The notes under the pieces are model-generated. The model saw nothing but the letters and a program-made list of their open reading frames with translations, was not told where the DNA came from and did no database searches. A program made the translations under genes and the position numbers. Shown one piece after another: positions 20,524-33,113 of a stretch of DNA of 64,000 nucleotides. The DNA lies in the NCBI GenBank assembly GCA_016218105.1, contig JACRET010000010.1:62001-126000 (forward strand), read 5' to 3'. This DNA comes from Deltaproteobacteria bacterium. Its GTDB lineage: Bacteria > Desulfobacterota > GWC2-55-46. Numbering within the stretch: the stretch's first letter is position 1; every line of letters starts with the position of its first letter.

Positions 20524-23334
20524 ATGGGCGCGTGCTCAGACATATCGTTCTTCAGAAGATGCTGGAAGTGGAGCTGGATCGTAACGCTCCCTATAACGGC
20601 GTTTTTCGCTGTCTGGCTTAACAATACCGGCGAGATGTACTACCTCCTCAAGCTTAAATACCGGCCCACCATGCCTGTCAGCCTTTCAAATATCGGTTCG
20701 ATGCAGGCGGGGCTCCTTTTAAACGAGATAAAGGGGGCGGCAGGGGTTTTTAACGGCGGGAAAGGGCTCGATTCCATCCACATCTATGCGCGGGAATCAG
20801 AACTTAAAGAGCTCGATTCGGATCTTCCATATTCCGGAAGGCGATACGTGCAGGCGCAGCTCCTTTATCCCGAAGGGAAACTCTTCGAGGTAAAGATGAA
20901 GTACAGAGGGGATTTCTCATATCACTGGAGCGATAAAAAGAAGTCCATCAGGATCAAGACGAAGAAGGACAGGCTTTTCGGCGGTGTGCGCGAATTCAAC
21001 CTCATCATCCCAAAGACCAGATACATACTGAACGACCATATCGCGTACCGGCTGGCGAAAAGAATGGGACTCCTTGCCCCGGAATCGAGGCTCGTGGAGG
21101 TATATGTAAACGGTAAATACAGAGGAGTGCAGATATTTGCCGAGCAGCTCGGCGAGCAGTTCCTGAGGAGGCAGGGCAAAATGCCAGGCGACCTTTATTC
21201 AGGCGACCTCGTCGGGGAGGACATGTTCCCGGTAGTCGGGACAGAGGTGTTCATGAACCCTGTTTTCTGGAAAAAAGCCGCTGTGAATAACCACAACCCA
21301 CCTGAATGGAATGAGGCGCTTAAAGAATTGAGCTCAGCCATTTATAACGGAGACATGGACAGGGTCACGGAACTGCTCGATATGGAGGCCTGGGCGAGGT
21401 TTGCCGCTTTTATCACCATAACCCGGACGCCGCATTTCGACGCGGAGCACAACTGGCGGCTCTATTTCGACCCGGCGATGGGGAAGTTCATCCCGGTCAT
21501 TTGGGACCCGCTCTGCTGGAACTATAAGGATTATGTCCCCCTTCTGGACAAGCAGACCAACAGGATGGACATCATCACGAATCCTGTCTTCGAGTTGCTC
21601 CACAGAGACCAGGCATTTCTCGCGTTGAAGCATGAGGCGATAGCGTCATTTTTCAGGGAGGGCGTGGACGATTATACGCTAAAGCTGCTGGATGATACCG
21701 GAGCCCTCGAAACATCGATAAGGCGCGATAGAAATCTGCACTTTGAGTCTTCCTATGTGCTTGGCCCTGGCGAGGTGATTGACGGTATACGGGCTTTTAA
21801 AGGGCTGGTTCAAAAGAGCTTTGATGAGGTTAAAAGGGAGTATATGGGAAGTGACCCCGCGGCCTCTTACTCGATAATGGAAAAAACAGGCGGGATTCAG
21901 ATCAATGTCGCTGGGTTTACGCCCATAAGGTCTTTGGAGATAAACTACTCGCCGGGTAAAGGCAGGCCGCTTGGCGCGTCTGTAGCCTACCTGAAGGACG
22001 GCAGTTTGCATTCAAAGGATATCTCCGCCAGCATCCTTGAGGCGGACGGCGGGATGTTGAGGGTCTCTACGCCTCTTTTCTCAAAGAGGGTTATGACAGT
22101 CCCCGCCGGGAATGTACCGATCATCATAAGGGATGCGTCGGTTGAGCCGGCGAGCTATATCTTTCATATCAAGGGCGCTGACAAAAGAAAGGTCTTGGGC
22201 GTAAATGCCGTTCTCTTCGATGGCAGAAAAATCCCTTTGAGTAAAACAGACCATCCTATGGAGGTCCATCCCCTGGACGGTACCTTCAATATATTACCAG
22301 CAATAAAAACAGACCGCGAGATCGTCTGGGCCTCTGACGTAATTATAAACGGCGTAAAAGAGGTGAACGACAGTCTTGTCATAAGGCCCGGAGTGACCGT
22401 GCGTTTTTCCTCCGGCTCCGCCCTTGTGGTAAGGGGTAAGCTGACTGCCAGGGGAGAGAAGGACAGGCCCATAAGGTTTGTCCCGGTCGAAGGCGCTTCA
22501 GGCCCGTGGGGAGCGCTTGTCCTTGCGGGGAAGGGGGCTGGCAGGTCGAGTTTGAGCCACTGCGAGTTCAGCGGGGGCAGCGGGTTGAGCCACAGGCTCG
22601 TCGAATACTCGGCGATGCTGTCCATACACGGCGTTGAAGGAGTGACTATAGAGCACTGCTCGTTTGCCGACAGCAAGGTCGTCGATGACATGGTGCACGC
22701 CGTATATTCGGAGGTCGCCTTAAGCGACAGCGTATTCAGAAACTCCAAGGCGGACGCGCTCGATCTTGATTATGTAAAAGCCAAGGTAGTCAATTCCAGC
22801 TTTATAAATAGCGGTAACGACGGGCTTGACCTTATGTCCAGCACCGTCGCCGTCCTCGGGAGCGTGATGGAGGGGTCGGGAGACAAGGGGATATCCGTCG
22901 GAGAGGGTACGGAAGTATTTGTCTGGAATACGCGCATTTCAGGCAACCAGATAGGCCTGCAGGCAAAGGACAGCTCAACGGCCGTGCTCTATAATTCAGA
23001 GCTTCTGGAAAACCGTAAGTCCATAGATGCGTACAAAAAGAACTGGCAGTACGGGGAAGGCGGCCATGCGCTGGTTTACAAGAGCATACTTGACGGCGCG
23101 AGCCCGGCTATTACCGCCGGCAAGGGCTCGAGCATAAGGATATTCGATTCATATCTTAAAGGGGATACAGGCGGTAAGACGAAGCGGATAAAGATAGACA
23201 GCACCGTGGACGCGGAGGCTGGCTATGAGAGAAAGGCCCGGTCAAAGAGCGCTTTCATTTGGGAAGAGAGCCTCCCTGAATCGGTACGTCCGTATCTTCA
23301 TCTTGTGAGCCCAACCGTAAGGGGAGGGATGTAA
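20524..23334 (+). CDS. CotH kinase family protein fused to a right-handed beta-helix
   Basis: A 936-residue secreted or membrane-anchored protein. A single hydrophobic segment (about 14-34) acts as anchor or signal. The CotH domain spans about 85-440: the lead strand KMKYRGDFSYHWSDKKKSIR, then NDHIAYRLAKRMGLLAPES, VYVNGKYRGVQIFAEQL, and the catalytic region DAEHNWRLYFDP followed by VIWDPLCW with the metal-binding Asp. CotH proteins are atypical protein kinases that phosphorylate secreted proteins. A beta-rich linker (about 460-600) leads to parallel beta-helix repeats (about 620-880; VVRGKLTARGEKDRPIRF, VNSSFINSGNDGLDLMSSTV), a fold that binds polysaccharide. It overlaps the VTC gene by one base (TAATG). 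The fusion suggests a kinase placed on a cell-surface polymer (inference). Confidence 0.9.
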   Translation: MGACSDISFFRRCWKWSWIVTLPITAFFAVWLNNTGEMYYLLKLKYRPTMPVSLSNIGSMQAGLLLNEIKGAAGVFNGGKGLDSIHIYARESELKELDSDLPYSGRRYVQAQLLYPEGKLFEVKMKYRGDFSYHWSDKKKSIRIKTKKDRLFGGVREFNLIIPKTRYILNDHIAYRLAKRMGLLAPESRLVEVYVNGKYRGVQIFAEQLGEQFLRRQGKMPGDLYSGDLVGEDMFPVVGTEVFMNPVFWKKAAVNNHNPPEWNEALKELSSAIYNGDMDRVTELLDMEAWARFAAFITITRTPHFDAEHNWRLYFDPAMGKFIPVIWDPLCWNYKDYVPLLDKQTNRMDIITNPVFELLHRDQAFLALKHEAIASFFREGVDDYTLKLLDDTGALETSIRRDRNLHFESSYVLGPGEVIDGIRAFKGLVQKSFDEVKREYMGSDPAASYSIMEKTGGIQINVAGFTPIRSLEINYSPGKGRPLGASVAYLKDGSLHSKDISASILEADGGMLRVSTPLFSKRVMTVPAGNVPIIIRDASVEPASYIFHIKGADKRKVLGVNAVLFDGRKIPLSKTDHPMEVHPLDGTFNILPAIKTDREIVWASDVIINGVKEVNDSLVIRPGVTVRFSSGSALVVRGKLTARGEKDRPIRFVPVEGASGPWGALVLAGKGAGRSSLSHCEFSGGSGLSHRLVEYSAMLSIHGVEGVTIEHCSFADSKVVDDMVHAVYSEVALSDSVFRNSKADALDLDYVKAKVVNSSFINSGNDGLDLMSSTVAVLGSVMEGSGDKGISVGEGTEVFVWNTRISGNQIGLQAKDSSTAVLYNSELLENRKSIDAYKKNWQYGEGGHALVYKSILDGASPAITAGKGSSIRIFDSYLKGDTGGKTKRIKIDSTVDAEAGYERKARSKSAFIWEESLPESVRPYLHLVSPTVRGGM

Positions 23335-24074
23335 TGAAGCCTGAGCTCCATTTTTCAAGATTTGAATTCAAGTACATAATGCCCAGGCATCTAAGGCAGG
23401 CGTTCGAGAGCGAGCTTGGCTATTTCATGGCCCTTGACCCTTATGTGAGCGCCAGGCGCCACCAGAAGTATTTTGTCCGGAGCCTTTATTTCGATGACGA
23501 GGCGTTGACGTGCTATTACGAAAAGACGGACGGCGTCATGGTCAGGCGAAAATACAGGATAAGGACATATACCGATAACAGGGATGAGGATACGGCCATA
23601 TTCCTTGAGATGAAAGGCAGGTACAACGCGCTTGTCTATAAGCACCGCATCTCGCTTCCCAGGAGGATTATCGGCGATATTGAAGGAGACAGCCGGGTTT
23701 TGATAAAGACACTGGTCTCGCTCAAGCAGGATACGCTCCTTTCAGCGTTCATATTCGACTCTTTGCGGATGCGGCTCAGGCCGCGGATGCTTATAGATTA
23801 TGTAAGGAGGCCGTATGTAAGCAGGTACGCGCCGGACTTCCGGGTGACATTCGACGACTCGCTGGAGTCGACCATAACCGGGAGCCTCTTCAACAAGGTA
23901 ACGGACAGAAAGAGGGCGTTTCTTCCGGGCTACAGCATCGTAGAGGTCAAATTCAAGAGGCATATACCGTCCTGGTTCCACCGCCTGATACAGTCTTATG
24001 AGCTAAGGAGGATATCGGTCTCCAAATACTGCAAGGGGATGGAGAGGACAGGGCTGGCGGATAATCTTGAGTAA
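23334..24074 (+). CDS. VTC-domain (polyphosphate polymerase-like) protein
   Basis: A 246-residue soluble protein with the VTC domain, the tunnel fold that in yeast Vtc4 makes polyphosphate from ATP. The basic and acidic residues that line the tunnel are recognisable: FEFKYIMPRHL at the N-terminus, KYFVRSLYFDDEAL, RRKYRIRTYTDN, FLEMKGRYNALVYKHR, and EVKFKRHIPSWF near the end. There is no signal peptide, so it works in the cytoplasm or on its face of the membrane. Bacterial versions are regularly found next to CotH and DUF4956 genes, as here; whether they polymerise phosphate or bind triphosphate is not shown. The gene overlaps CotH by one base and is therefore translationally coupled to it. 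Confidence 0.92.
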   Translation: MKPELHFSRFEFKYIMPRHLRQAFESELGYFMALDPYVSARRHQKYFVRSLYFDDEALTCYYEKTDGVMVRRKYRIRTYTDNRDEDTAIFLEMKGRYNALVYKHRISLPRRIIGDIEGDSRVLIKTLVSLKQDTLLSAFIFDSLRMRLRPRMLIDYVRRPYVSRYAPDFRVTFDDSLESTITGSLFNKVTDRKRAFLPGYSIVEVKFKRHIPSWFHRLIQSYELRRISVSKYCKGMERTGLADNLE

Positions 24075-24083
24075 CGTTAAATA

Positions 24084-24166
24084 TTGAAGCTCCCCGCGGC
24101 AAACCACGGGGAATCTTCGATATGTAAGGAAACAATTTCTATTCGCTCGCTATGCATATTCAATTA
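24084..24166 (-). repeat. Repeat element B, divergent copy
   Basis: TTGAAGCTCCCCGCGG / CCACGGGGAATC followed, after a stretch of about 35 foreign bases, by TTCGCTCGCTATGCATATTC. It is the reverse of the B element nested in repeats A at 19060 and 59952. It stands free here, between the VTC and DUF4956 genes. Confidence 0.7.
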
Positions 24167-24261
24167 CCCTGCCATAATTGGCAGGGATTGTCGGCAAGGT
24201 ACTTGCCTTTTATATAGCCCGGCTTTGACCCGCCCTTAAAAGGACGGGAATTACGCCGGGC
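24167..24261 (+). other. Run of three strong stem-loops before the DUF4956 gene
   Basis: Stem 1: CCCTGCC / GGCAGGG (24167-24186). Stem 2: GGCAAG / CTTGCC (24193-24207). Stem 3: GCCCGGC / GCCGGGC (24217-24261) enclosing CCCGCCCT / AGGACGGG. They end 28 bases before the DUF4956 start codon. They could be a structured leader, a processing site or simply stacked dispersed repeats. I see no match to a known riboswitch consensus. Confidence 0.5.
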
Positions 24262-24288
24262 ACCCGATTAAATTCAAAGGAGCGGCAG

Positions 24289-24972
24289 ATGGACAAGAAG
24301 GCTTTCGCAGAGATAGGGGATTTACTCATTTACAGCCAGTTCGATATAGCGGTAAATATGGCTCTCGCCATAGCGCTGGGGCTCATTATCTCGCTTGTTT
24401 ACAGGTATACGCATAAGGGGCTTTCGTATTCACAGTCTTTTGTGCTGACTCTCGTGTTTGTTGCCGTTATCGTCTCATCGGTGATGATGATAATCGGCAA
24501 CAGCCTTGCGCGGGCCTTCGCACTCGTGGGAGCGCTTTCGATAATCCGGTTCCGCACCGTGGTAAAGGACACCAAGGACACCGCATACGTGTTCTTCGCG
24601 CTCGCCGCGGGGATGGCGGCTGGCACGAGCAATTACTTCATCGCGGTGGTTACGACGGCAGTCATGTGCATCCTCGCCATAATACTCCACCACCTGAACT
24701 TCGGTGCGCTTTATAAAAGCGAATTTATACTCAGGTTCCAGTACGACAGGGACAGCGGAGACGAAGGATATCTGGAGAGAATCAATAAATTCGCAAAACG
24801 CTCGAACCTTCTGCATGTGGAGCCGTCCGGGGACGGTAGGTTCATTACCATCACATACGACATAATCCTTAAGCCCGACGCGAAGACGGAGGCCTTCTCC
24901 AGCGAAATAGCCAAGGTCAACGGCGTCTCCGAGGTGACACTGATTGCGTCAAAGAGCGATGTTGATTTCTAG
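24289..24972 (+). CDS. DUF4956 integral membrane protein
   Basis: A 227-residue protein with hydrophobic segments at about 17-38, 45-67, 72-88 and 98-130, so three or four membrane passes, and a cytoplasmic C-terminal domain (140-227) of ferredoxin-like character (EFILRFQYDRDSGDEGYLER, ITITYDIILKPDAKTEAF). The conserved core of the family is ALVGALSIIRFRTVVKDTKDTAYVFFALAAGMAAG, where the Arg-Phe-Arg and KD pairs lie in a re-entrant loop. The family has no assigned function; it is repeatedly encoded beside CotH kinase and VTC genes. GGAG precedes the ATG. The stop TAG is formed by the first bases of a family A repeat (TAGCAGGCTGCTG). Confidence 0.9.
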   Translation: MDKKAFAEIGDLLIYSQFDIAVNMALAIALGLIISLVYRYTHKGLSYSQSFVLTLVFVAVIVSSVMMIIGNSLARAFALVGALSIIRFRTVVKDTKDTAYVFFALAAGMAAGTSNYFIAVVTTAVMCILAIILHHLNFGALYKSEFILRFQYDRDSGDEGYLERINKFAKRSNLLHVEPSGDGRFITITYDIILKPDAKTEAFSSEIAKVNGVSEVTLIASKSDVDF

Positions 24973-25067
24973 CAGGCTGCTGAAAAAGCCCATAGCTTCG
25001 TTGTCTTTGTCGCTCGTCACTGCGGCGTACATACAAAGTACGCCGCATTCCTCGCTTCTCGACGACC
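24970..25067 (+). repeat. Dispersed repeat family A, right end missing
   Basis: TAGCAGGCTGCTGAAAAAGCCC followed by the core CGCTCGTCACTGCGGCGTAC and GTACGCCGCATTCCTCGCTTCTCGACG. The right inverted end is missing and repeat C copy 4 begins soon after. Its first three bases serve as the DUF4956 stop codon. Confidence 0.8.
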
Positions 25068-25090
25068 CAGACTGAAATGAAATTTCAAAT

Positions 25091-25174
25091 ACCGGCCCGT
25101 TTCGGAGAACGGGCCCTACATAGAAGAAGCCCCTGCGGGGGATTTTAAAAAGAGATTGCTTCGCTCGCAATGAC
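25091..25174 (+). repeat. Repeat family C, copy 4
   Basis: CCGGCCCGTTTCGGAGAACGGG, CCCTACATAGAAGAAGCCCCTGCGGGG and GAGATTGCTTCGCTCGCAATGAC. This is the reverse complement, part by part, of copy 2 at 5738-5830. Confidence 0.75.
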
Positions 25175-25254: not shown

Positions 25255-25284
25255 TTGACAAAACTTGAGAATTAGGACTAAAAT
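25255..25284 (+). promoter_or_regulatory. Promoter of the Rrf2 regulator gene
   Basis: TTGACA (25255-25260) and TAAAAT (25279-25284) with an 18-base spacer. The -10 lies inside the conserved operator-like sequence 25271-25294, so binding there would block RNA polymerase: autorepression, as for IscR, is the natural reading. Confidence 0.7.
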
Positions 25285-25294
25285 CATCTTATTA
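25271..25294 (+). promoter_or_regulatory. Putative Rrf2 operator, copy 1 (autoregulatory)
   Basis: ATTAGGACTAAAA-N4-CTTATTA. The identical pattern, same spacing, occurs at 25807-25830 after the regulator gene and before ccoN; 20 of 24 positions are fixed. The neighbouring TCCTA (25296-25300) makes a loose dyad with TAGGA. Confidence 0.65.
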
Positions 25295-25324
25295 ATCCTA
25301 TAAACGTTTTTTAATCGGGACAGA

Positions 25325-25780
25325 ATGCTTCAGCTTACCAGAGACGGCGAGTACGCGGTCAGGGCAGTCTTATATCTGGCTTCTCAGGCGCCGGGCAAGA
25401 TCTCTCTCATACAGGAGATATCCGTTGCCCAGGATGTGCCAAGGAGCTATCTTTCAAAGATAATGCAGAGCCTCACGAGGTCTGGGCTTGTAAAATCCAG
25501 GCGCGGGGCAAAGGGCGGTTTTTTCCTTGCGAGACCCGCTGAAGAGATTACGCTCCGCGAGACGATACAGGCGGTAGAGGGCCCGATACATCTGAACGTC
25601 TGCTTGATCAGGAAGGGCGAATGCCCTAAAGACGAAGTGTGTCCGGTGCATCCGGTCTGGAAAGAAGCTCAGAAAAAACTCTTTGAGGTGCTTGACAGCA
25701 AAACCATGGCCGAGCTTGTAAGGGATGCGGAAATGATAAGCAGGGCTGGCAGGAAAAAGGGCTCAAAAAAAGAAGCTTAA
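25325..25780 (+). CDS. Rrf2-family regulator with IscR-like Fe-S ligands
   Basis: A 151-residue regulator. The N-terminal winged helix (1-75) has the family start MLQLTRDGEYAVRAVLYLA, recognition region VPRSYLSKIMQSLTRSGLV and wing KSRRGAKGGFFLARP. The C-terminal part carries Cys93, Cys100 and Cys106 plus His109 (NVCLIRKGEC, VCPVH), nearly the IscR spacing of Cys92/98/104/His107, so a [2Fe-2S] cluster is likely, sensing Fe-S status, O2 or NO. It has a sigma-70 promoter overlapped by an operator-like sequence that recurs before ccoN. By position it should regulate itself and the cbb3 oxidase operon. IscR itself is usually beside iscS; none is seen here. Confidence 0.9.
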   Translation: MLQLTRDGEYAVRAVLYLASQAPGKISLIQEISVAQDVPRSYLSKIMQSLTRSGLVKSRRGAKGGFFLARPAEEITLRETIQAVEGPIHLNVCLIRKGECPKDEVCPVHPVWKEAQKKLFEVLDSKTMAELVRDAEMISRAGRKKGSKKEA

Positions 25781-25806
25781 AAAAAAGGCAAAATTTTTTT
25801 AGAAAT

Positions 25807-25830
25807 ATTAGGACTAAAAAGACCTTATTA
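25807..25830 (+). promoter_or_regulatory. Putative Rrf2 operator, copy 2 (upstream of ccoN)
   Basis: ATTAGGACTAAAA-N4-CTTATTA, matching copy 1. It is 26 bases after the rrf2 stop and about 235 bases before ccoN. No good -35 is visible before it (AAATTT at the matching place), so the ccoN promoter may be weak, regulator-dependent, or further downstream. Between here and 26063 I see only a partial tip of repeat A (CTGTTAACAGCCTG) and GGAGG before ccoN. Confidence 0.6.
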
Positions 25831-26063
25831 CTTCTTTTTTGGCCTGTTAACAGCCTGCCTCAAGGATTATGCCGCCAATGCATCAATTTCCGGTTCTTTA
25901 AATCCAATCGGCTCGGCGCAGTCCGCTCTTTTATAAGGGTGAGTCAAAATGCCTGGCAATAAAAAGACCAGCGCCTTGAACCGGCAATCACCCATTTTGA
26001 AATCCGTAGCCTGAAAAGGCTTTTCCATAAAATAGAAAAACTGAATATACAAAGGAGGACTGT

Positions 26064-27509
26064 ATGCAGGAGGATTCGGCTGTTCTGGAGAGTCCGGGGG
26101 TAAAGATACGCGAAGGCGATTCGCCCCGGTATAACGATGAGATAGTAAAGAAGTTCTGCGTAATGGCTGTCGTATGGGGGATCGTCGGTATGCTGGTCGG
26201 CGTGCTCGCCGCGGCGGAGCTGGCTTTCCCGGCTCTTAATATGGATATCCCTCAGCTTACATTCGGCAGGATCAGGCCGCTCCACACAAACGCGGTGATA
26301 TTCGCCTTCGGCGGATGCGTCCTCTTCGCCGCGATGTTTTATTCCGTGCAGAGGACGTCCAGGGTGAGGCTCTTTAGCGATACTCTCGCAAATATTACTT
26401 TCTGGGGATGGCAGCTTATAATCGTGCTTGCGGCGCTTACGCTCCCGCTCGGCATGACAGCCGGCAAGGAGTACGCGGAGCTTGAGTGGCCGATAGACCT
26501 GCTCATCGCCGCGGTGTGGCTCGTAAACGGAGTAAACTACTTCGCGACGATCTGGAAGCGCAAGGAAAGCCATATCTATGTCGGCAACTGGTTCTACATG
26601 GCGATGATAATCACGATAACGGTGCTCCATGTGTTCAACTCGCTCGCGCTCCCGGTAAGCCTGACTAAATCATATTCCGCTTATTCAGGCGTTCAGGACG
26701 CGATGGTGCAGTGGTGGTACGGCCATAACGCGGTCGGTTTTTTCCTTACGGCCGGGTTTCTGGGCATCATGTATTATTTCCTCCCCAAACAGGCGGGGCT
26801 TCCGATCTACAGCTACAGGCTCTCTATACTGCATTTCTGGACGCTGATCTTCCTTTACGTCTGGGCCGGCCCCCATCATCTCCTCTATACGGCGCTCCCG
26901 GACTGGACGCAGACCCTCGGCATGACCTTCAGCGTCATGCTCATAGCCCCCTCATGGGGCGGCATGGTGAACGGCATCATGACACTCAAGGGCGCGTGGG
27001 AAAAACTCAGGACCGACCCGATACTGAAGTTCATGATAGTCGCCATTTCATTCTATGGGATGTCCACCTTCGAGGGCCCGATGCTCGCGATCAGGGCGGT
27101 AAACGCGCTTTCTCATTATACGGATTGGGGAATAGGCCATGTACACAGCGGCGCGCTCGGCTGGGTCGCCATGATAAGCATAGGCGCGCTCTATTATATG
27201 GTCCCGAGGGTCTTCGGGAAGGTGAATATGTACAGCACAAAGCTCATCAATACCCACTTCTGGATGGCTACTGTCGGGGTCGTCGTATATATAGTCGCTA
27301 TGTGGATCTCGGGAATAACCCAGGGCCTTATGTGGAGGGCGGTCAACGCCGACGGCTCCCTTACCTATACCTTCGCCGAGTCCGTGGCGGCCATGCATCC
27401 CTATTACGTTATGAGGTTTTTGGGGGGCGCTCTATATTTGGCCGGGATGCTTGTCATGGCCTATAACGTGCTTATGACCGCGAAGGCGGGCGAGAGGAGG
27501 GTGGCATGA
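26064..27509 (+). CDS. ccoN: cbb3-type cytochrome c oxidase subunit I
   Basis: The catalytic subunit of the high-affinity cbb3 terminal oxidase in the cytoplasmic membrane; it reduces O2 and pumps protons. The 481 residues contain twelve hydrophobic segments. Haem and copper ligands are visible: [14 protein letters not shown] (low-spin haem b His), [15 protein letters not shown] (Cu-B His), [14 protein letters not shown] (the His pair of Cu-B), and [14 protein letters not shown] (high-spin and low-spin haem His). AAAGGAGGA lies before the ATG. It overlaps ccoO by ATGA. The long leader upstream and the second Rrf2-type operator suggest regulated expression, likely rising at low oxygen. Confidence 0.98.
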
Positions 27510-28111
27510 GACACGAAATAATCGAGAAAAACGGCCTCCTGATGGCCATATTGATAGGGGCGCTTATAAGCGTCGGCGGGCTTGTAGAGATAACTCCGCT
27601 GTTTTTTCTCAAATCGACCATACCTCCCCTTGAAGGCGTAAGGCCGTATACGGCCCTTGAGCTTGAAGGCCGGGACATTTACATAAGGGAGGGCTGCTAT
27701 AACTGCCACTCGCAGATGATAAGGCCGTTCAGGGCAGAGACAGAGAGATACGGCCCGTATTCAAAGCCGGCTGAATCGATGTACGACCACCCCTATCAGT
27801 GGGGTTCAAAGAGGACGGGCCCGGACCTGGCCAGGGTAGGCAAAAAGTATCCTGATTCATGGCACGTCCAGCATATGGAAGACCCCAGGTCCATCGTTCC
27901 CGAGTCCGTGATGCCGAGGTATCCGTGGCTGGCGCAAACGGAGCTTGACGGAACATTTATCAGGAAGAAGCTGTCCGTCATGAAAACACTGGGTGTGCCG
28001 TACACTGCTTCCGAGATCGAAACGTCGGCGGAGACGCTGAAAGGCAAGACAGAGCTCGACGCGCTGATAGCCTATCTGCAGTCTCTCGGAACGGCGGTCA
28101 AGAGGAGGTAG
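27506..28111 (+). CDS. ccoO: cbb3-type cytochrome c oxidase subunit II (monohaem cytochrome c)
   Basis: A 201-residue membrane-anchored cytochrome c. One N-terminal membrane segment (about 10-34, [20 protein letters not shown]) is followed by the haem site C64-Y-N-C67-H68 in [11 protein letters not shown], and the typical [19 protein letters not shown] and [19 protein letters not shown] stretches, the latter with the axial Met. It passes electrons to CcoN. It overlaps ccoN by four bases and ccoQ starts three bases after its stop. Confidence 0.98.
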
Positions 28112-28257: not shown

Positions 28258-28288
28258 TAAAAATTGAACCGCAATGGAGGAAATTAAA

Positions 28289-28792
28289 ATGCCTGAGAAG
28301 ATCGGACATTCAGTTGACGGCATAGAGGAGTACGACAACCCCATCCCGAGATGGCTCATGTGGCTGCTCTATTTCACAGTGATATTCAGCTTCGTATATT
28401 GGATCCTTTATCCCGGCTTCTGGTCAGGGGCCTCGGGATGGAACCAGGCGCATATGTATGAGGAGGAGGTCGAACTGGCCTCCGTCAAGTACGCGGCCTT
28501 CGCTTCCAAAGCCGAAGACCTGAACTCGCTTGTAAACAACCCTAAAGCGATAGCCGAAGGCAAGGAAATATTCGCGCAGAACTGCTCTCCCTGCCATGGG
28601 GCGGATGCCCACGGCGCCATAGGGCCTAACCTGACGGACAAGGACTGGATCTACGGCGGGACACCGCAGGCGATAGCGAAAACGGTCACTGACGGCACCG
28701 CGAACGGAATGCCGACATGGAAGTCACAGTTAGGCTCCTTAAAGATCGCGGATGTGGCCGTTTACGTCCACAGCCTGGGCGGCGGGCAATAG
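28289..28792 (+). CDS. ccoP: CcoP subunit with a single haem c site
   Basis: A 167-residue cytochrome subunit. I start at the ATG placed eight bases after GGAGG; a more upstream ATG (28274) would overlap that site. Start MPEKIGHSVDGIEEYDNPIP and WLMWLLYFTVIFSFVYWILYPG (membrane segment about 22-43) are classical CcoP. Only one haem motif is present, C99-S-P-C102-H103 in FAQNCSPCHGADAHG, with axial Met in NGMPTWK. Most CcoP proteins have two haem c domains and about 300 residues; here the second domain is absent. It should still deliver electrons from soluble donor cytochromes. The stop is followed closely by ccoG. Confidence 0.93.
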   Translation: MPEKIGHSVDGIEEYDNPIPRWLMWLLYFTVIFSFVYWILYPGFWSGASGWNQAHMYEEEVELASVKYAAFASKAEDLNSLVNNPKAIAEGKEIFAQNCSPCHGADAHGAIGPNLTDKDWIYGGTPQAIAKTVTDGTANGMPTWKSQLGSLKIADVAVYVHSLGGGQ

Positions 28793-28801
28793 GCCGGCAA
28801 G

Positions 28802-30163
28802 GTGAAGAAAATGGAAACCGGGAAAAGGGAAAAGCTGTATCCGAAGGGCGTAAGAGGGAGGTTCAGACACCTTAGATGGGCCGTGACAGCGGCCTCTTTA
28901 GGCGTTTTCTTTCTGCTGCCCTGGCTTACGATTGACGGCCGTCAAGCGCTGCTCTTTGATATCCCGAACAGGAAATTCTATATCTTCAACCTTATCTTCT
29001 GGCCGCAGGAGGTCTACTATCTCGCGTTCCTCCTGGTCTTCCTCGTGATCGCGCTCTTCCTTTTCACCGCGGTCGCAGGAAGGCTCTGGTGCGGGTACGC
29101 CTGTCCGCAGACCGTATTTACGGACATATTCATCAGCATAGAACGCTTTATCGAGGGAGAAAGGAACGAAAGGATCGCCCTCGATAAGGCGGGCTTTTCA
29201 AACGGCAAGGCGGTAAAAAAGGCGGTAAAGCACGCCGTTTGGATCATTTTTTCGTTCGCCACGGCCTTTGCGTTCGTGTCGTTTTTCGTGCCTCCCGCCG
29301 TCCTTATTGAAAGGCTCTTTACAGGCAATCTGACGAGCGCGAACCTCTTCTGGCTCGGGCTCTTTACGCTTACCACTTACGGAGATTGCGCGTTTTTAAG
29401 GGAGTTGATGTGCCTGGTCCCTTGCCCGTACGGCAGGTTCCAGTCGGCCCTTTTCGACACCGACACCTTGATCATAGGCTACGATTCAAAAAGGGGCGAG
29501 CCGAGGACGCACGGCAAAAAAAAGGAAAGCGGCGGTGATTGCGTGGACTGCACCCTTTGCGTGCAGGTCTGCCCTACCGGGATAGACATAAGAAACGGGC
29601 TTCAATACGAATGTATCGCGTGCGCCCAGTGCATAGACGCATGCGACACGGTGATGGGAAAACTAGGCCGTCCGAAGGGGCTTATCAGGTACGGCTCTTT
29701 AAAATCTATCGCGGGAGGAGAAACGAAGGTTTTAAGGCCGAGGCTCGTCCTTTACGCCGTCTGCCTTACAGCCCTCTTGATAATGATGGTGTACAAAGTA
29801 AGCATGCGGTCGCCTATCGACCTGGAAGTGCTCCGGGACAGGAGCGCCCTCTTTCAGACCGGCAAGGACGGCAGGATATCGAATATATATACGATCAAGG
29901 CTATGAACATGGACAGCCGCGACCATCAATACTCGATAAAGGCCAAAGGAATAAAGGCGGAGATCATCGTCGGGAAAAATCCTATCACGGTAAAGAGCGG
30001 CGAGGTATACCAGACTTCTCTAGCCTTGATACTCGATGGAGACGAGATAGAAAACAGGGTCAGCCGTTTCGATTTCATAATAGAGGATGTGGAAGACCCT
30101 GAGATATCTGCAAAGCGTCAGTCCACCTTTCTGGTGCCTGAGACCTCTGTGGCAAAGAGATAA
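28802..30163 (+). CDS. ccoG: cbb3 oxidase accessory protein CcoG (FixG/RdxA family)
   Basis: A 453-residue membrane iron-sulfur protein needed for cbb3 assembly, now thought to reduce copper for delivery to CcoN. Four or five hydrophobic segments (about 35, 75, 155, 190 and 318) surround polyferredoxin motifs: RLWCGYACPQTVF (the conserved CGYxCPQ), CLVPCPYGRFQ, and two [4Fe-4S] sites CVDCTLCVQVCPTGI and CIACAQCIDAC. A C-terminal immunoglobulin-like domain follows (YTIKAMNMDSRDHQYS). The start is either GTG 28802 or ATG 28811, both in frame; AAGGTG lies between and supports the ATG slightly. It opens the ccoGHIS assembly operon nine bases after ccoP. Confidence 0.96.
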   Translation: MKKMETGKREKLYPKGVRGRFRHLRWAVTAASLGVFFLLPWLTIDGRQALLFDIPNRKFYIFNLIFWPQEVYYLAFLLVFLVIALFLFTAVAGRLWCGYACPQTVFTDIFISIERFIEGERNERIALDKAGFSNGKAVKKAVKHAVWIIFSFATAFAFVSFFVPPAVLIERLFTGNLTSANLFWLGLFTLTTYGDCAFLRELMCLVPCPYGRFQSALFDTDTLIIGYDSKRGEPRTHGKKKESGGDCVDCTLCVQVCPTGIDIRNGLQYECIACAQCIDACDTVMGKLGRPKGLIRYGSLKSIAGGETKVLRPRLVLYAVCLTALLIMMVYKVSMRSPIDLEVLRDRSALFQTGKDGRISNIYTIKAMNMDSRDHQYSIKAKGIKAEIIVGKNPITVKSGEVYQTSLALILDGDEIENRVSRFDFIIEDVEDPEISAKRQSTFLVPETSVAKR

Positions 30164-30180: not shown

Positions 30181-30639
30181 ATGGAAAAGAAGAAAAACTA
30201 CTGGCCGCTGGCGATAGCCGCTTCATTGGGGGTGGTGTTCCTGGTGAACTTCTTTTTTCTTTACATGGCTGTTAAAAGCGACGACGGGCTCACGGATAAA
30301 AATTACTATGAAAAAGGCCTCCTCTACGACAGCCAGTTGAAAAACCGGAAAGAGCTTGGATGGAAGATAGAATTGTCGATGGGCTCCGAGCAGGACTCCA
30401 ACAGGAAGATTTACGTAACAGTGACGGATAAAGAGGGGAGGCCGCTTAAGGATGCCTCTGTAAAGCTGGTGCTCATGAGGCCGGCAACCGATAAGTATGA
30501 CCGTGTCCTTAATCTTACCTCGGCCAAAGGACAATACATAGGGGACATCGCCATTCCCCTTGGCGGATGGTGGGACCTCAAGATCAGCGCCGGCCAGGGC
30601 AGGCTGGAAATGGAAGAGACGTTCAGGATAAAGGTTTAA
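30181..30639 (+). CDS. ccoH: FixH-family cbb3 assembly protein
   Basis: A 152-residue protein with an N-terminal membrane segment (about 8-30, PLAIAASLGVVFLVNFFFLYMA) and a periplasmic beta domain. The FixH signature DKNYYEKGLLYDSQLKNRKE is present, as is GWWDLKISAGQGRLEMEE at the end. It assists maturation of the cbb3 oxidase together with the copper ATPase CcoI encoded next. GAGGAGAGACGAG before the ATG gives a good ribosome binding site. Confidence 0.95.
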   Translation: MEKKKNYWPLAIAASLGVVFLVNFFFLYMAVKSDDGLTDKNYYEKGLLYDSQLKNRKELGWKIELSMGSEQDSNRKIYVTVTDKEGRPLKDASVKLVLMRPATDKYDRVLNLTSAKGQYIGDIAIPLGGWWDLKISAGQGRLEMEETFRIKV

Positions 30640-30647
30640 GGATATTT

Positions 30648-33113
30648 ATGAGCCTTGCCCTCAAGGAAAATTTGAAGATTGACGAGACCTGCTTCCATTG
30701 CGGCGAGGCGCTTCCAGCGGAGGCGCTCGCCCGTGCTTTTAAGGGAGAGGAACTGAAGTTTTGCTGCAACGGGTGCAGGTCTGTCTGTTCCTACATCTTC
30801 GAGGCGGGGCTTGAGGGCTATTATGAAAAGAGGGATAAAAAACCGGGCGCGCCGTTCCTGCCAAAAGGGGCCGCGGAAAGCGAAGACCCTGATTTCGTCA
30901 AAAAGAAGGGAGGCGTAAAGGAAGCGTGCCTGATAATAGAAGGCATCCACTGCTCCGCCTGCATCTGGCTGATAGAAAAGGTCATGGGAAAGATGGAAGG
31001 GGTGCGGTCGGCAAGGCTCAATTATTCCACGCACAAGCTGAGAATAGAGTGGGACGCGTCAAAAACCAGCATGAATGAGGTGATCTCCAAGATATCTTCA
31101 ATAGGCTACGGGGCCGCCCCTTTTGACAACTCAAATGATGAGCTGCTTAAAAATAAAAAGGATGACGCGCTGATAAGGGTCTCTGTCGCCGGGTTTGGAA
31201 CGCTCGCTTCCATGTTTCTCGCCGAGGGCCTTTACGGCGGCTATCTGTGGGGAATTGACGAAGGCTTTAAGGGTTTTTTGCAGTGGGCAAGCCTCCTCGT
31301 GTCAATCCCCGTTGTTTTCTATTCAGGGCTTCCTTTTATAAAAGGGGCTTACAACGGGCTTCGCAACAGGGCGATGACGATGGACATGCCGATAGCGGCA
31401 GGCGCGCTTATTACATTTTTCTACAGCGTCTGGGCAACGGTGCGGGGCAGCGGTGACGTGTACTTCGACTCCGCGGTAATGTTTATTTTCTTTATCCTGA
31501 TAGGCAGGTACCTTGAAGCCGTTTCCAAAAAAAAGGCCGCCGAGCGAATCTCAAGGCTTACGTCATTGGAGACTACAACCGCTGTCCTTTATAGAAACGG
31601 CCTTAGAAGGGCCGTCCCCTTAAAATCGATTATCAGGGGCGATATCATAGAGATAAGGCCTGGAGACAAGGTGCCGCTTGACGGAGTTTTGCTCGAGGGC
31701 GCATCCAGGCTCGACGAAGCGATGCTTACGGGTGAATCCAGGCCTGTGGAGAAGGGAAAAGATGATCTTATATGGGGCGGCACGCTTAATCTGGACGGCT
31801 CATTCCTCCTTAAGGTGACTGAGGTGGGGGGATTCACTAGGATCTCCAGGATAAAGCGTCTCATCGAGGACGCGGAGCTTAATAAGACCCGTATTCAAAA
31901 GATGGCTGACAAGATAGCTGGATATTTTATCCCCGCCATATTGAGCGCCGCAGTACTGACCTTTCTATACTGGACGATGTACGACCCGCCTCACGCCCTC
32001 GTTTACGCTGTTACAGTCCTCATAATCACCTGCCCCTGCGCTCTGGCTCTCGCGACCCCCGCGGCAATACTCGCGGGGAGCGGGAGGGCGGCAAGGGAAG
32101 GGGTGCTTATAAAGAACAACGAGGCGCTTGAGCTGGTATGCAAGGCGACGCATATCGTCTTTGACAAGACCGGCACGCTTACCGAGGGACGGATGTCTGT
32201 TACGGACATTGTAACGTTAAACTGCATGGAGGAGGAGTTGCTGACGCTCGTGGCTGCCATCGAGCAGTACTCGGAGCACCCGATCGGAAAGGCGATTTGC
32301 GCTGAGGCAAGGAAGAGAGGGATTGTGTTTGGAAAGGCGGGTTTTAAGGCCTGCCCCGGCAAAGGTGTAAAAGGGGTTGTAAGGAATACGGAAATAATCG
32401 GAGCGGGGGCCATTTTTGAAAGCACAATCTATGCGGGAAGCAGTAAATTCATGCGTGATGAAGGGTTCGAAATAACAAAAGAGCTTTCAGCGTCCGAGGA
32501 AAAATTTAATGCTGAAGGCAAGACCGTGGTCTATGTCGCGCGGGAAGGCAGAGCGGACAAAGAAGCCCTCGGTCTTTTAGCCGTCTCAGACCCGTTGAGG
32601 GCCGAGTCCCGGGAGGCGGTAAGTAATCTCAAATCAATGGGGCTCAGGGTTACGATACTCTCAGGTGACAAGAGGGCCGTAGCCGAGGCTGTCGGAGAGG
32701 CCATAGGGGTAACGGACGTGGTTGCCGAGCTCCTGCCTGAGGACAAGGAAAAAGCGATAAGGAAGCTTAAGGCAAAAGGGGAGGCCGTTATAATGGTAGG
32801 TGACGGCGTTAACGACGGGCCGGCCCTCGCCGCCTCGGATATAGGGATAGCTATGGGTTCCGGAACCGACCTTGCCATCAGCTCCGCAGATATAGTATTG
32901 CTGAGCAATAATCCCCTGAAGGTCGTCAAGGCGATAGATATATCAAGAAAGACGTTCAGGGCTATAAAGGAAAATCTATGGCTCTCTGTACTTTATAACC
33001 TTGTATTCATGCCACTTGCGGCCTTCGGCTTCATCGTGCCGGTCATAGCGGCGGTCGCTATGCCGTTAAGCTCTCTGGCGGTAATAGGGAATTCAATAAG
33101 GAACAGAAACTGA
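30648..33113 (+). CDS. ccoI: Copper-exporting P-type ATPase CcoI (FixI) for cbb3 oxidase
   Basis: An 821-residue P1B-type ATPase that moves copper across the membrane for CcoN. I start at MSLALKENLKIDETC, eight bases after ccoH; the frame is open further upstream but overlaps ccoH. Parts: a Zn-binding-like N-terminus (C15-x2-C18, FCCNGC at 38-43), an HMA domain with GIHCSACIW (C102, C105), the copper path motif TCPCALA (C462-P-C464), phosphorylation Asp506 in FDKTGTLTEG, HP motif in QYSEHPIGKAI, and hinge VGDGVNDGPALAASD. All motifs for activity are intact. The operon order GHIS is the usual one. Confidence 0.97.
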   Translation: MSLALKENLKIDETCFHCGEALPAEALARAFKGEELKFCCNGCRSVCSYIFEAGLEGYYEKRDKKPGAPFLPKGAAESEDPDFVKKKGGVKEACLIIEGIHCSACIWLIEKVMGKMEGVRSARLNYSTHKLRIEWDASKTSMNEVISKISSIGYGAAPFDNSNDELLKNKKDDALIRVSVAGFGTLASMFLAEGLYGGYLWGIDEGFKGFLQWASLLVSIPVVFYSGLPFIKGAYNGLRNRAMTMDMPIAAGALITFFYSVWATVRGSGDVYFDSAVMFIFFILIGRYLEAVSKKKAAERISRLTSLETTTAVLYRNGLRRAVPLKSIIRGDIIEIRPGDKVPLDGVLLEGASRLDEAMLTGESRPVEKGKDDLIWGGTLNLDGSFLLKVTEVGGFTRISRIKRLIEDAELNKTRIQKMADKIAGYFIPAILSAAVLTFLYWTMYDPPHALVYAVTVLIITCPCALALATPAAILAGSGRAAREGVLIKNNEALELVCKATHIVFDKTGTLTEGRMSVTDIVTLNCMEEELLTLVAAIEQYSEHPIGKAICAEARKRGIVFGKAGFKACPGKGVKGVVRNTEIIGAGAIFESTIYAGSSKFMRDEGFEITKELSASEEKFNAEGKTVVYVAREGRADKEALGLLAVSDPLRAESREAVSNLKSMGLRVTILSGDKRAVAEAVGEAIGVTDVVAELLPEDKEKAIRKLKAKGEAVIMVGDGVNDGPALAASDIGIAMGSGTDLAISSADIVLLSNNPLKVVKAIDISRKTFRAIKENLWLSVLYNLVFMPLAAFGFIVPVIAAVAMPLSSLAVIGNSIRNRN

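Follow-up and report, generated by a model that had tools for sequence, protein, structure and literature searches.

Matching operator-like sites at an rrf2 promoter and ahead of a terminal-oxidase operon suggest a local, autoregulated Rrf2 switch in a deltaproteobacterium

The window, meaning the whole 64,000-nucleotide stretch of deltaproteobacterial DNA analysed here, carries an rrf2 gene followed on the same strand by genes for a cbb3 oxidase. The genome is an uncultured, deltaproteobacterium-like MAG, and its closest relatives found among named genomes are Deltaproteobacteria MAGs, for example GWB2_55_19. The features of the locus, in window coordinates, are as follows.

25255..25284, + strand: rrf2 promoter, TTGACA at 25255-25260, 18-nt spacer, TAAAAT at 25279-25284; 11/12 consensus matches
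25270..25297, + strand: operator A, AATTAGGACTAAAATCATCTTATTAATC; overlaps the rrf2 -10; exact motif
25325..25780, + strand: rrf2, Rrf2-family transcriptional regulator, 151 aa (TIGR00738 8e-38, PF02082 2e-38)
25794..25800, + strand: T-tract TTTTTTT, 10 nt before the GGAC in operator B
25806..25833, + strand: operator B, TATTAGGACTAAAAAGACCTTATTACTT; between rrf2 and ccoN
26064..27509, + strand: ccoN, cbb3 oxidase subunit I (TIGR00780 1e-220)
27506..28111, + strand: ccoO (TIGR00781 3e-85)
28274..28792, + strand: ccoP, short form (FixP_N, Cytochrome_CBB3); one CXXCH (CSPCH) in the translation
28802..30163, + strand: ccoG (TIGR02745 3e-151)
30181..30639, + strand: ccoH (FixH) (PF05751 5e-28)
30567..33113 (ORF limits), + strand: ccoI, copper P-type ATPase (E1-E2_ATPase, HMA and ATPase-cat_bd domains)

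The true start of ccoI probably lies after 30639, and CcoP, at 172 aa, has one CXXCH where two haem c sites are usual. A small hairpin, AGCCTgaaaAGGCT, lies at 26008-26024; TTTT comes after it, immediately ahead of the ribosome-binding site of ccoN. Relatives have different hairpins (GGCCTT...GAGGCC) at the corresponding point of the ccoN leader. The gene cluster upstream of rrf2, at 20524-24972, encodes a large protein in which right-handed beta-helix-like segments recur, together with a VTC-domain protein and a membrane protein of the DUF4956 type. The stretch from the DUF4956 gene to the rrf2 promoter (24985-25170) is repeat-like, includes the inverted repeat GCGGCGTACATACAAAGTACGCCGC, and is perhaps the remnant of a mobile element.

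The first-pass annotation had described an exactly repeated 24-base operator-like sequence, one copy covering the -10 of the rrf2 promoter and the other preceding the cbb3 operon. This pair was reproduced at both positions: ATTAGGACTAAAA-N4-CTTATTA occurs at 25271-25294 and at 25807-25830 with 0 mismatches (20/20 fixed bases), the first copy overlapping the -10 of the TTGACA-18-TAAAAT promoter and the second lying between rrf2 (25325-25780) and ccoN (26064-27509). The window holds no third match at up to 3 mismatches, with 100 shuffles giving 0, and at the same tolerance the whole 2.87 Mb genome holds none beyond these two sites. A 28-position model, R1, returned the same pair from the genome, with E values of 2.4e-5 for A and 2.0e-4 for B, and its next-best match is noise (E 0.69); in the genome scan that the annotation had proposed, just two sites stand out. 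A wider regulon in this genome was considered and rejected, as a loosened pattern gave 19 genome matches against 55 with a reversed control. The operator-like character of the 24-mer is upheld by its conservation in relatives, but its outline is not: the better-supported core is a 28-bp element, located at 25270-25297 and at 25806-25833, whose imperfect dyad reads RGAC-N7-RTCY, and the right part of the 24-mer is conserved only moderately among relatives. In the window, the right half departs from the palindrome at both operators.

The rrf2 loci used for comparison (L numbers) were drawn from 97 related genomes (G numbers) and comprise 64 distinct loci. An operator A-type site was found at the promoters of 49/64 rrf2 genes scanned, and its conservation there reaches across genera and families. 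By a close-family matrix trained without the window, operator A of the window scores 35.5 bits, above all 300 shuffles, and the same matrix finds similar sites in most distant rrf2 loci. The consensus on the rrf2 side is AATTAGGACTAAAATCATCTTAAATATC; distant loci carry variants such as AAATAGGATAAAAAAGGTCTTAAATGTT, and exact GACTAAAATAGTC occurs in L009 and L097; across relatives the dyad reads RGAY-N7-RTCY, which has IscR type-1 spacing. The rrf2-side sites sit on or beside a TTGACA promoter, with TTGAC upstream in 41/49 at a distance from the operator that varies from 7 to 28 nt, and a sigma-70 promoter holds 32/49 of them against a shuffle expectation of 5.75.

The DNA downstream of rrf2 was scanned with a matrix built from rrf2 promoters alone, by which operator B of the window scores 23.0 bits, with a p of 0.0025 that is the floor of 400 shuffles. 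Operator B is conserved in six genomes (G001-G004, G006, and G049); comparison of orthologous rrf2-ccoN loci, which the annotation had named as the test that could refute it, thus found the motif in place. Phylogenetic footprinting therefore indicates that both sites are operators. A site scoring at least 12 was found in 23/30 loci with an oxidase within 4.2 kb and in 1/29 other loci, a contrast whose Fisher p of 3.4e-9 is inflated by shared ancestry, the loci not being independent. No recognisable B site was detected in the other 7/30 oxidase-linked rrf2 loci.

The loci with B sites span several families and three oxidase types (cbb3, aa3, and bd), called by Pfam, NCBIfam, and BLAST. Strong B sites precede cbb3 operons in the window and in L066, L067, L068, L095, L098, L102, L103, and L105, aa3-type cox operons in L092, L117, L119, L124, L126, L130, and L137-L140, the cydA gene in L123, and ccoN-like genes in L110 and L115. 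The regulon would differ between lineages, since about half of the examined rrf2 loci have no neighbouring oxidase. Extra weak model matches in relatives (L188, L193, L197, L198) were set aside as likely coding coincidences or unrelated genes, as was a recurring T-run match such as CGGGGATTATTATGGTCTTTAT in several genomes, which is probably coding sequence.

Other neighbourhoods were also observed. In genera g6 and g7, the gene after the close rrf2 orthologue encodes a flavoprotein resembling ferredoxin-NAD reductase rather than an oxidase (L101, L142-L144, L014, L017), and no B site was found at any of these six flavoprotein loci. A cupin-like small protein (MEA-NVxEKKEFK...) adjoins Rrf2 genes or sites in L104, L114, L116, L125, L141, and L188, and is possibly another target in genomes without an adjacent oxidase. 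G019 carries a near-perfect palindromic operator, GGACTAAAATAGTCTTATTT, away from rrf2 (L093, 3813-3834); some 330 bp downstream of it is a gene for a bd-oxidase-like subunit I (PF01654).

Such sites also precede oxidase operons that have no neighbouring rrf2 in three genomes (G006, G014, and G016), and these cases speak most strongly for a tie between the sites and the oxidases themselves. G006 has its rrf2 orthologue on a separate contig, with its own A site, yet the ccoN operon keeps both an A-type promoter (TTGACA-17-TAAAAT, 11/12) and operator B; the two sites are 360 bp apart, and three frames of the DNA between them show no trace of rrf2. In G014, a T7-N11-site lies about 176 bp ahead of a coxC operon whose preceding 1.5 kb contains no rrf2, and TTGACA-16-TATAAA is seen by eye upstream of that site. 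G016 carries an A-type promoter some 550 bp upstream of coxC. Additionally, G017 (L009) has a degenerate T7-N11-site downstream of rrf2, and no ccoN was found in that genome; this degenerate element is probably a relic of the oxidase-side element.

The T-tract recurs on the oxidase side as a run of T6-8, usually ending exactly 11 nt before the RGAC core, in 22/27 sites, against a shuffle mean of 0.07 and a maximum of 2 in 5000 shuffles; it is missing at 5/27 B sites and occurs in 0/49 rrf2-side sites. The run almost always ends 6 nt before the 28-mer and covers about 12-19 nt upstream of the core. Its spacing to the operator is rigid (same base in 19/23), its position tracks the operator rather than the rrf2 stop codon (L106, L128, G006, G014), and it is present as well in L209 and L221, which lie outside the discovery set. 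Like the two sites, their conservation, and the oxidase link, the tract is established by comparison of sequences. An ordinary intrinsic terminator after rrf2 was rejected, as no consistent hairpin precedes the tract (mean z -0.3). In the window, the promoter scan found no promoter of comparable quality between rrf2 and ccoN, and among relatives a sigma-70 match occurs at 1/26 B loci (shuffle expectation 3.5), with -35 matches averaging 2.1/6 at B sites and 4.9 at A sites. The sites that the annotation had called matching therefore share their sequence but not their setting, the ccoN side having a T-tract and no detectable sigma-70 promoter.

Rrf2 regulators are known mainly for their roles in Fe-S supply, iron, NO, and cysteine. 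The rrf2 product passes the superfamily cut-offs (TIGR00738 129.3 bits, cut-off 73.3; PF02082 131.9, cut-off 30), and it falls below those of the IscR equivalog TIGR02010 (98.7 bits, cut-off 207.55) and NCBIfam NsrR (74.6 bits, cut-off 182), and well under the NCBIfam cut-offs for RirA and CymR. Cys93, Cys100, Cys106, and His109, cited earlier as close to the IscR ligand set, sit at the positions given. In alignment A1, E9, R13, K45, N91, C93, C100, and C106 are invariant in 23/23 homologues, His109, compared with the IscR ligand His107, is kept in 22/23 (Thr in the ccoN-linked homologue L022), and position 44, aligned with IscR Glu43, is Ser in 15 and Ala in 8 of the 23, never Glu. The three cysteines, in the 90-106 region as in cluster-binding members of the superfamily, bear out the earlier description, and the NsrR-like invariance of E9, R13, and K45, with a His109 that is not invariant, departs from it; since E9 and R13 are invariant, His109 is at 22/23, and no Glu stands at position 44, the regulator is not simply IscR-like.

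Asp8 of NsrR serves as its fourth cluster ligand and forms a salt bridge with Arg12; in the recognition helix, NsrR has Thr41, Ala44, and Lys45 where IscR has Ser40, Glu43, and Gln44 (PMC5411485). Glu43 is the residue that separates type-1 from type-2 binding in IscR. When the profile is aligned to NsrR chain 5n07 and RsrR chain 6hsd, query residue 2 pairs with chain residue 1, and because this offset is one at the N-terminus, E9 would fall at the Asp8 ligand position. An NsrR-type cluster site is therefore expected, with His109 perhaps in reserve.

The product of rrf2 would be a local, autoregulated repressor dedicated to the terminal-oxidase operon behind its gene. Autoregulation together with direct control of the oxidase by this Rrf2 is the reading favoured by the genomic comparison, with a probability of about 0.72; we infer binding by this protein, and repression rather than activation, as well as a cluster and a signal. 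An Rrf2 dimer would act on two operators, covering its own -10 and blocking initiation at A, and controlling the oxidase at B, between rrf2 and ccoN. The oxidase operon is probably read mostly from promoter A, as rrf2-ccoNOPGHI: a second sigma-70 promoter could not be detected between rrf2 and ccoN, and promoter A is kept upstream of the oxidase in relatives that have no intervening rrf2. Operator B may act on elongation, since it lies off any recognisable promoter and promoter A is kept where rrf2 has left; Rrf2 at B would then stop RNA polymerase during transcription of the T-tract, a roadblock step that we propose tentatively, at somewhat below even odds. The ligands of the Fe-S cluster would be C93, C100, C106, and, from the partner subunit, probably E9, in the role of NsrR Asp8. 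With its cluster in place, the protein would repress under anoxia; loss of the cluster to oxygen (or NO) would then free the oxidase. Oxygen or NO is favoured as the signal, since what the loci share as targets is oxidases, of three kinds; the behaviour of RirA and NsrR, read with the gene context, suggests cluster loss as its route, and we give release by either gas an even chance.

Repressors such as PurR, CodY, CcpA, and ArsR halt RNA polymerase when bound downstream of the start (PMC10310618), and at eukaryotic Pol I terminators the polymerase collides with a bound protein and stops within T-rich sequence, some 15 bp short of the protein site (PMC12366685). Like Reb1 and TTF1 roadblock terminators, the element here has a non-template T-rich run upstream of a protein site (PMC12366685), and as at a Reb1-type terminator, B lies downstream of promoter A and not over a promoter (25/26 B loci). 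It differs in polymerase and in protein, the likeness is one of sequence alone, and Pol I termination needs a hairpin for its efficiency, whereas no consistent hairpin is found here. The arrangement of T6-8, 11 nt, and an Rrf2 operator might amount to a regulated bacterial roadblock terminator, a proposal we hold to be rather doubtful: polymerase from the rrf2 promoter would be stopped with a weak U-rich hybrid in its active site and would release, and loss of the Fe-S cluster would open the road into the oxidase operon. Against any roadblock it counts that geometry alone is no proof of RNA polymerase roadblocking.

About as likely as the roadblock is that operator B covers an unusual ccoN promoter, in which the T-tract replaces the -35 and TAAAAA serves as the -10, so that Rrf2 would repress initiation twice. 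The T-tract lies nearly where TTGACA stands at A sites, TAAAAA is also a plausible -10 at distant rrf2 promoters, and Helicobacter promoters are modulated by T-tracts (PMC11162790); yet sigma-70 matches at B (1/26) are fewer than in shuffles (3.5), the -35 agreement is 2.1/6 there and 4.9 at A, the T-tract keeps a rigid spacing (19/23) where TTGAC at A sites ranges over 7 to 28 nt, and G006 and G016 have a full A-type promoter upstream of the oxidase with no rrf2 between. The lack of a good promoter at B, frequent at activated promoters, would also fit an Rrf2 that turns the oxidase on from B but represses its own gene at A, much as IscR, which acts both ways (PMC5411485), activates at some type-2 sites. 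This is unlikely, given that relatives show no consistently placed -10 downstream of B and that several B sites lie 20-60 bp from the oxidase start codon.

The binder itself may be questioned, as the core has IscR type-1 geometry and a second Rrf2 in the genome is an IscR encoded beside iscS-iscU (L090). Binding by this isc-operon IscR or by another factor is quite improbable, however, because no such site is present at the iscR locus and the site goes with this Rrf2's own promoter in 49 loci. It also counts against this Rrf2 as the binder that in some genomes the oxidase-adjacent Rrf2 is a divergent paralogue; such paralogues (about 30% identity) have the oxidase-side site alone. A chance repeat or mere promoter similarity, suggested by the -10 element being part of the motif, is refuted by conservation and has a negligible probability: shuffles gave 0, the pair is unique in the genome, both places are conserved in relatives, GGAC and the right half lie outside the promoter elements, and B has no promoter.

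The proposed control of its own gene and of the oxidase by this Rrf2 can be set beside known systems. The IscR type-1 motif is ATASYYGACTRWWWYAGTCRRSTAT, with core GACTRWWWYAGTC and GAC-N7-GTC (PMC3899308), and the core RGAC-N7-RTCY has the same spacing as that of E. coli (PMC3899308). Like IscR of Escherichia coli and Pseudomonas, the regulator has the fold, three cysteines, a His at 109, and an operator over its own promoter; unlike IscR, it has Ser44 for Glu43, a His that is not invariant, and E9/R13 in place of IscR residues, and it adjoins an oxidase operon rather than isc, with a regulon of two sites. Streptomyces coelicolor NsrR resembles it in an acidic residue at Asp8 (here Glu, E9) and Arg at Arg12, in Ala/Ser44 with Lys45 in the recognition helix, in the three cysteines, and in a small regulon with autoregulation (PMC5411485, PMC9338935). 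The targets here are oxidases, not hmp as for NsrR. The NsrR operator sequence is unlike this operator.

Rrf2 genes adjoin terminal-oxidase genes elsewhere too. In the accessible parts of the reports concerned, Geobacter sulfurreducens rrf2 GSU1639 adjoins cydAB (GSU1640-1641), all of which fall under cobalt stress (PMC7726332), and Rrf2-type neighbours are given for oxidase genes in Acidithiobacillus (ctaR) and for the cbb3 genes of Thiobacillus denitrificans (PMC2754497); those parts describe no operator for any of the three, unlike here (PMC7726332, PMC2754497). Caulobacter IscR affects oxidases indirectly via fixK (PMC11475020). In a search of literature that included few subscription journals, no published account of these operators or of the T-tract element was found, nor any paper that connects an Rrf2 protein with roadblocking ahead of oxidase genes.

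If the roadblock proposal is true, a single transcription unit would come under Rrf2 control at two steps, initiation and elongation, in a design like that of the Reb1/TTF1 terminators. The T-tract with its operator is a compact and easily tested candidate for a protein-gated bacterial terminator, and it provides a sequence signature for finding further cases. A lineage-wide set of Rrf2 proteins serving three oxidase types would show how anaerobe-like bacteria use a local sensor to switch on oxygen respiration.
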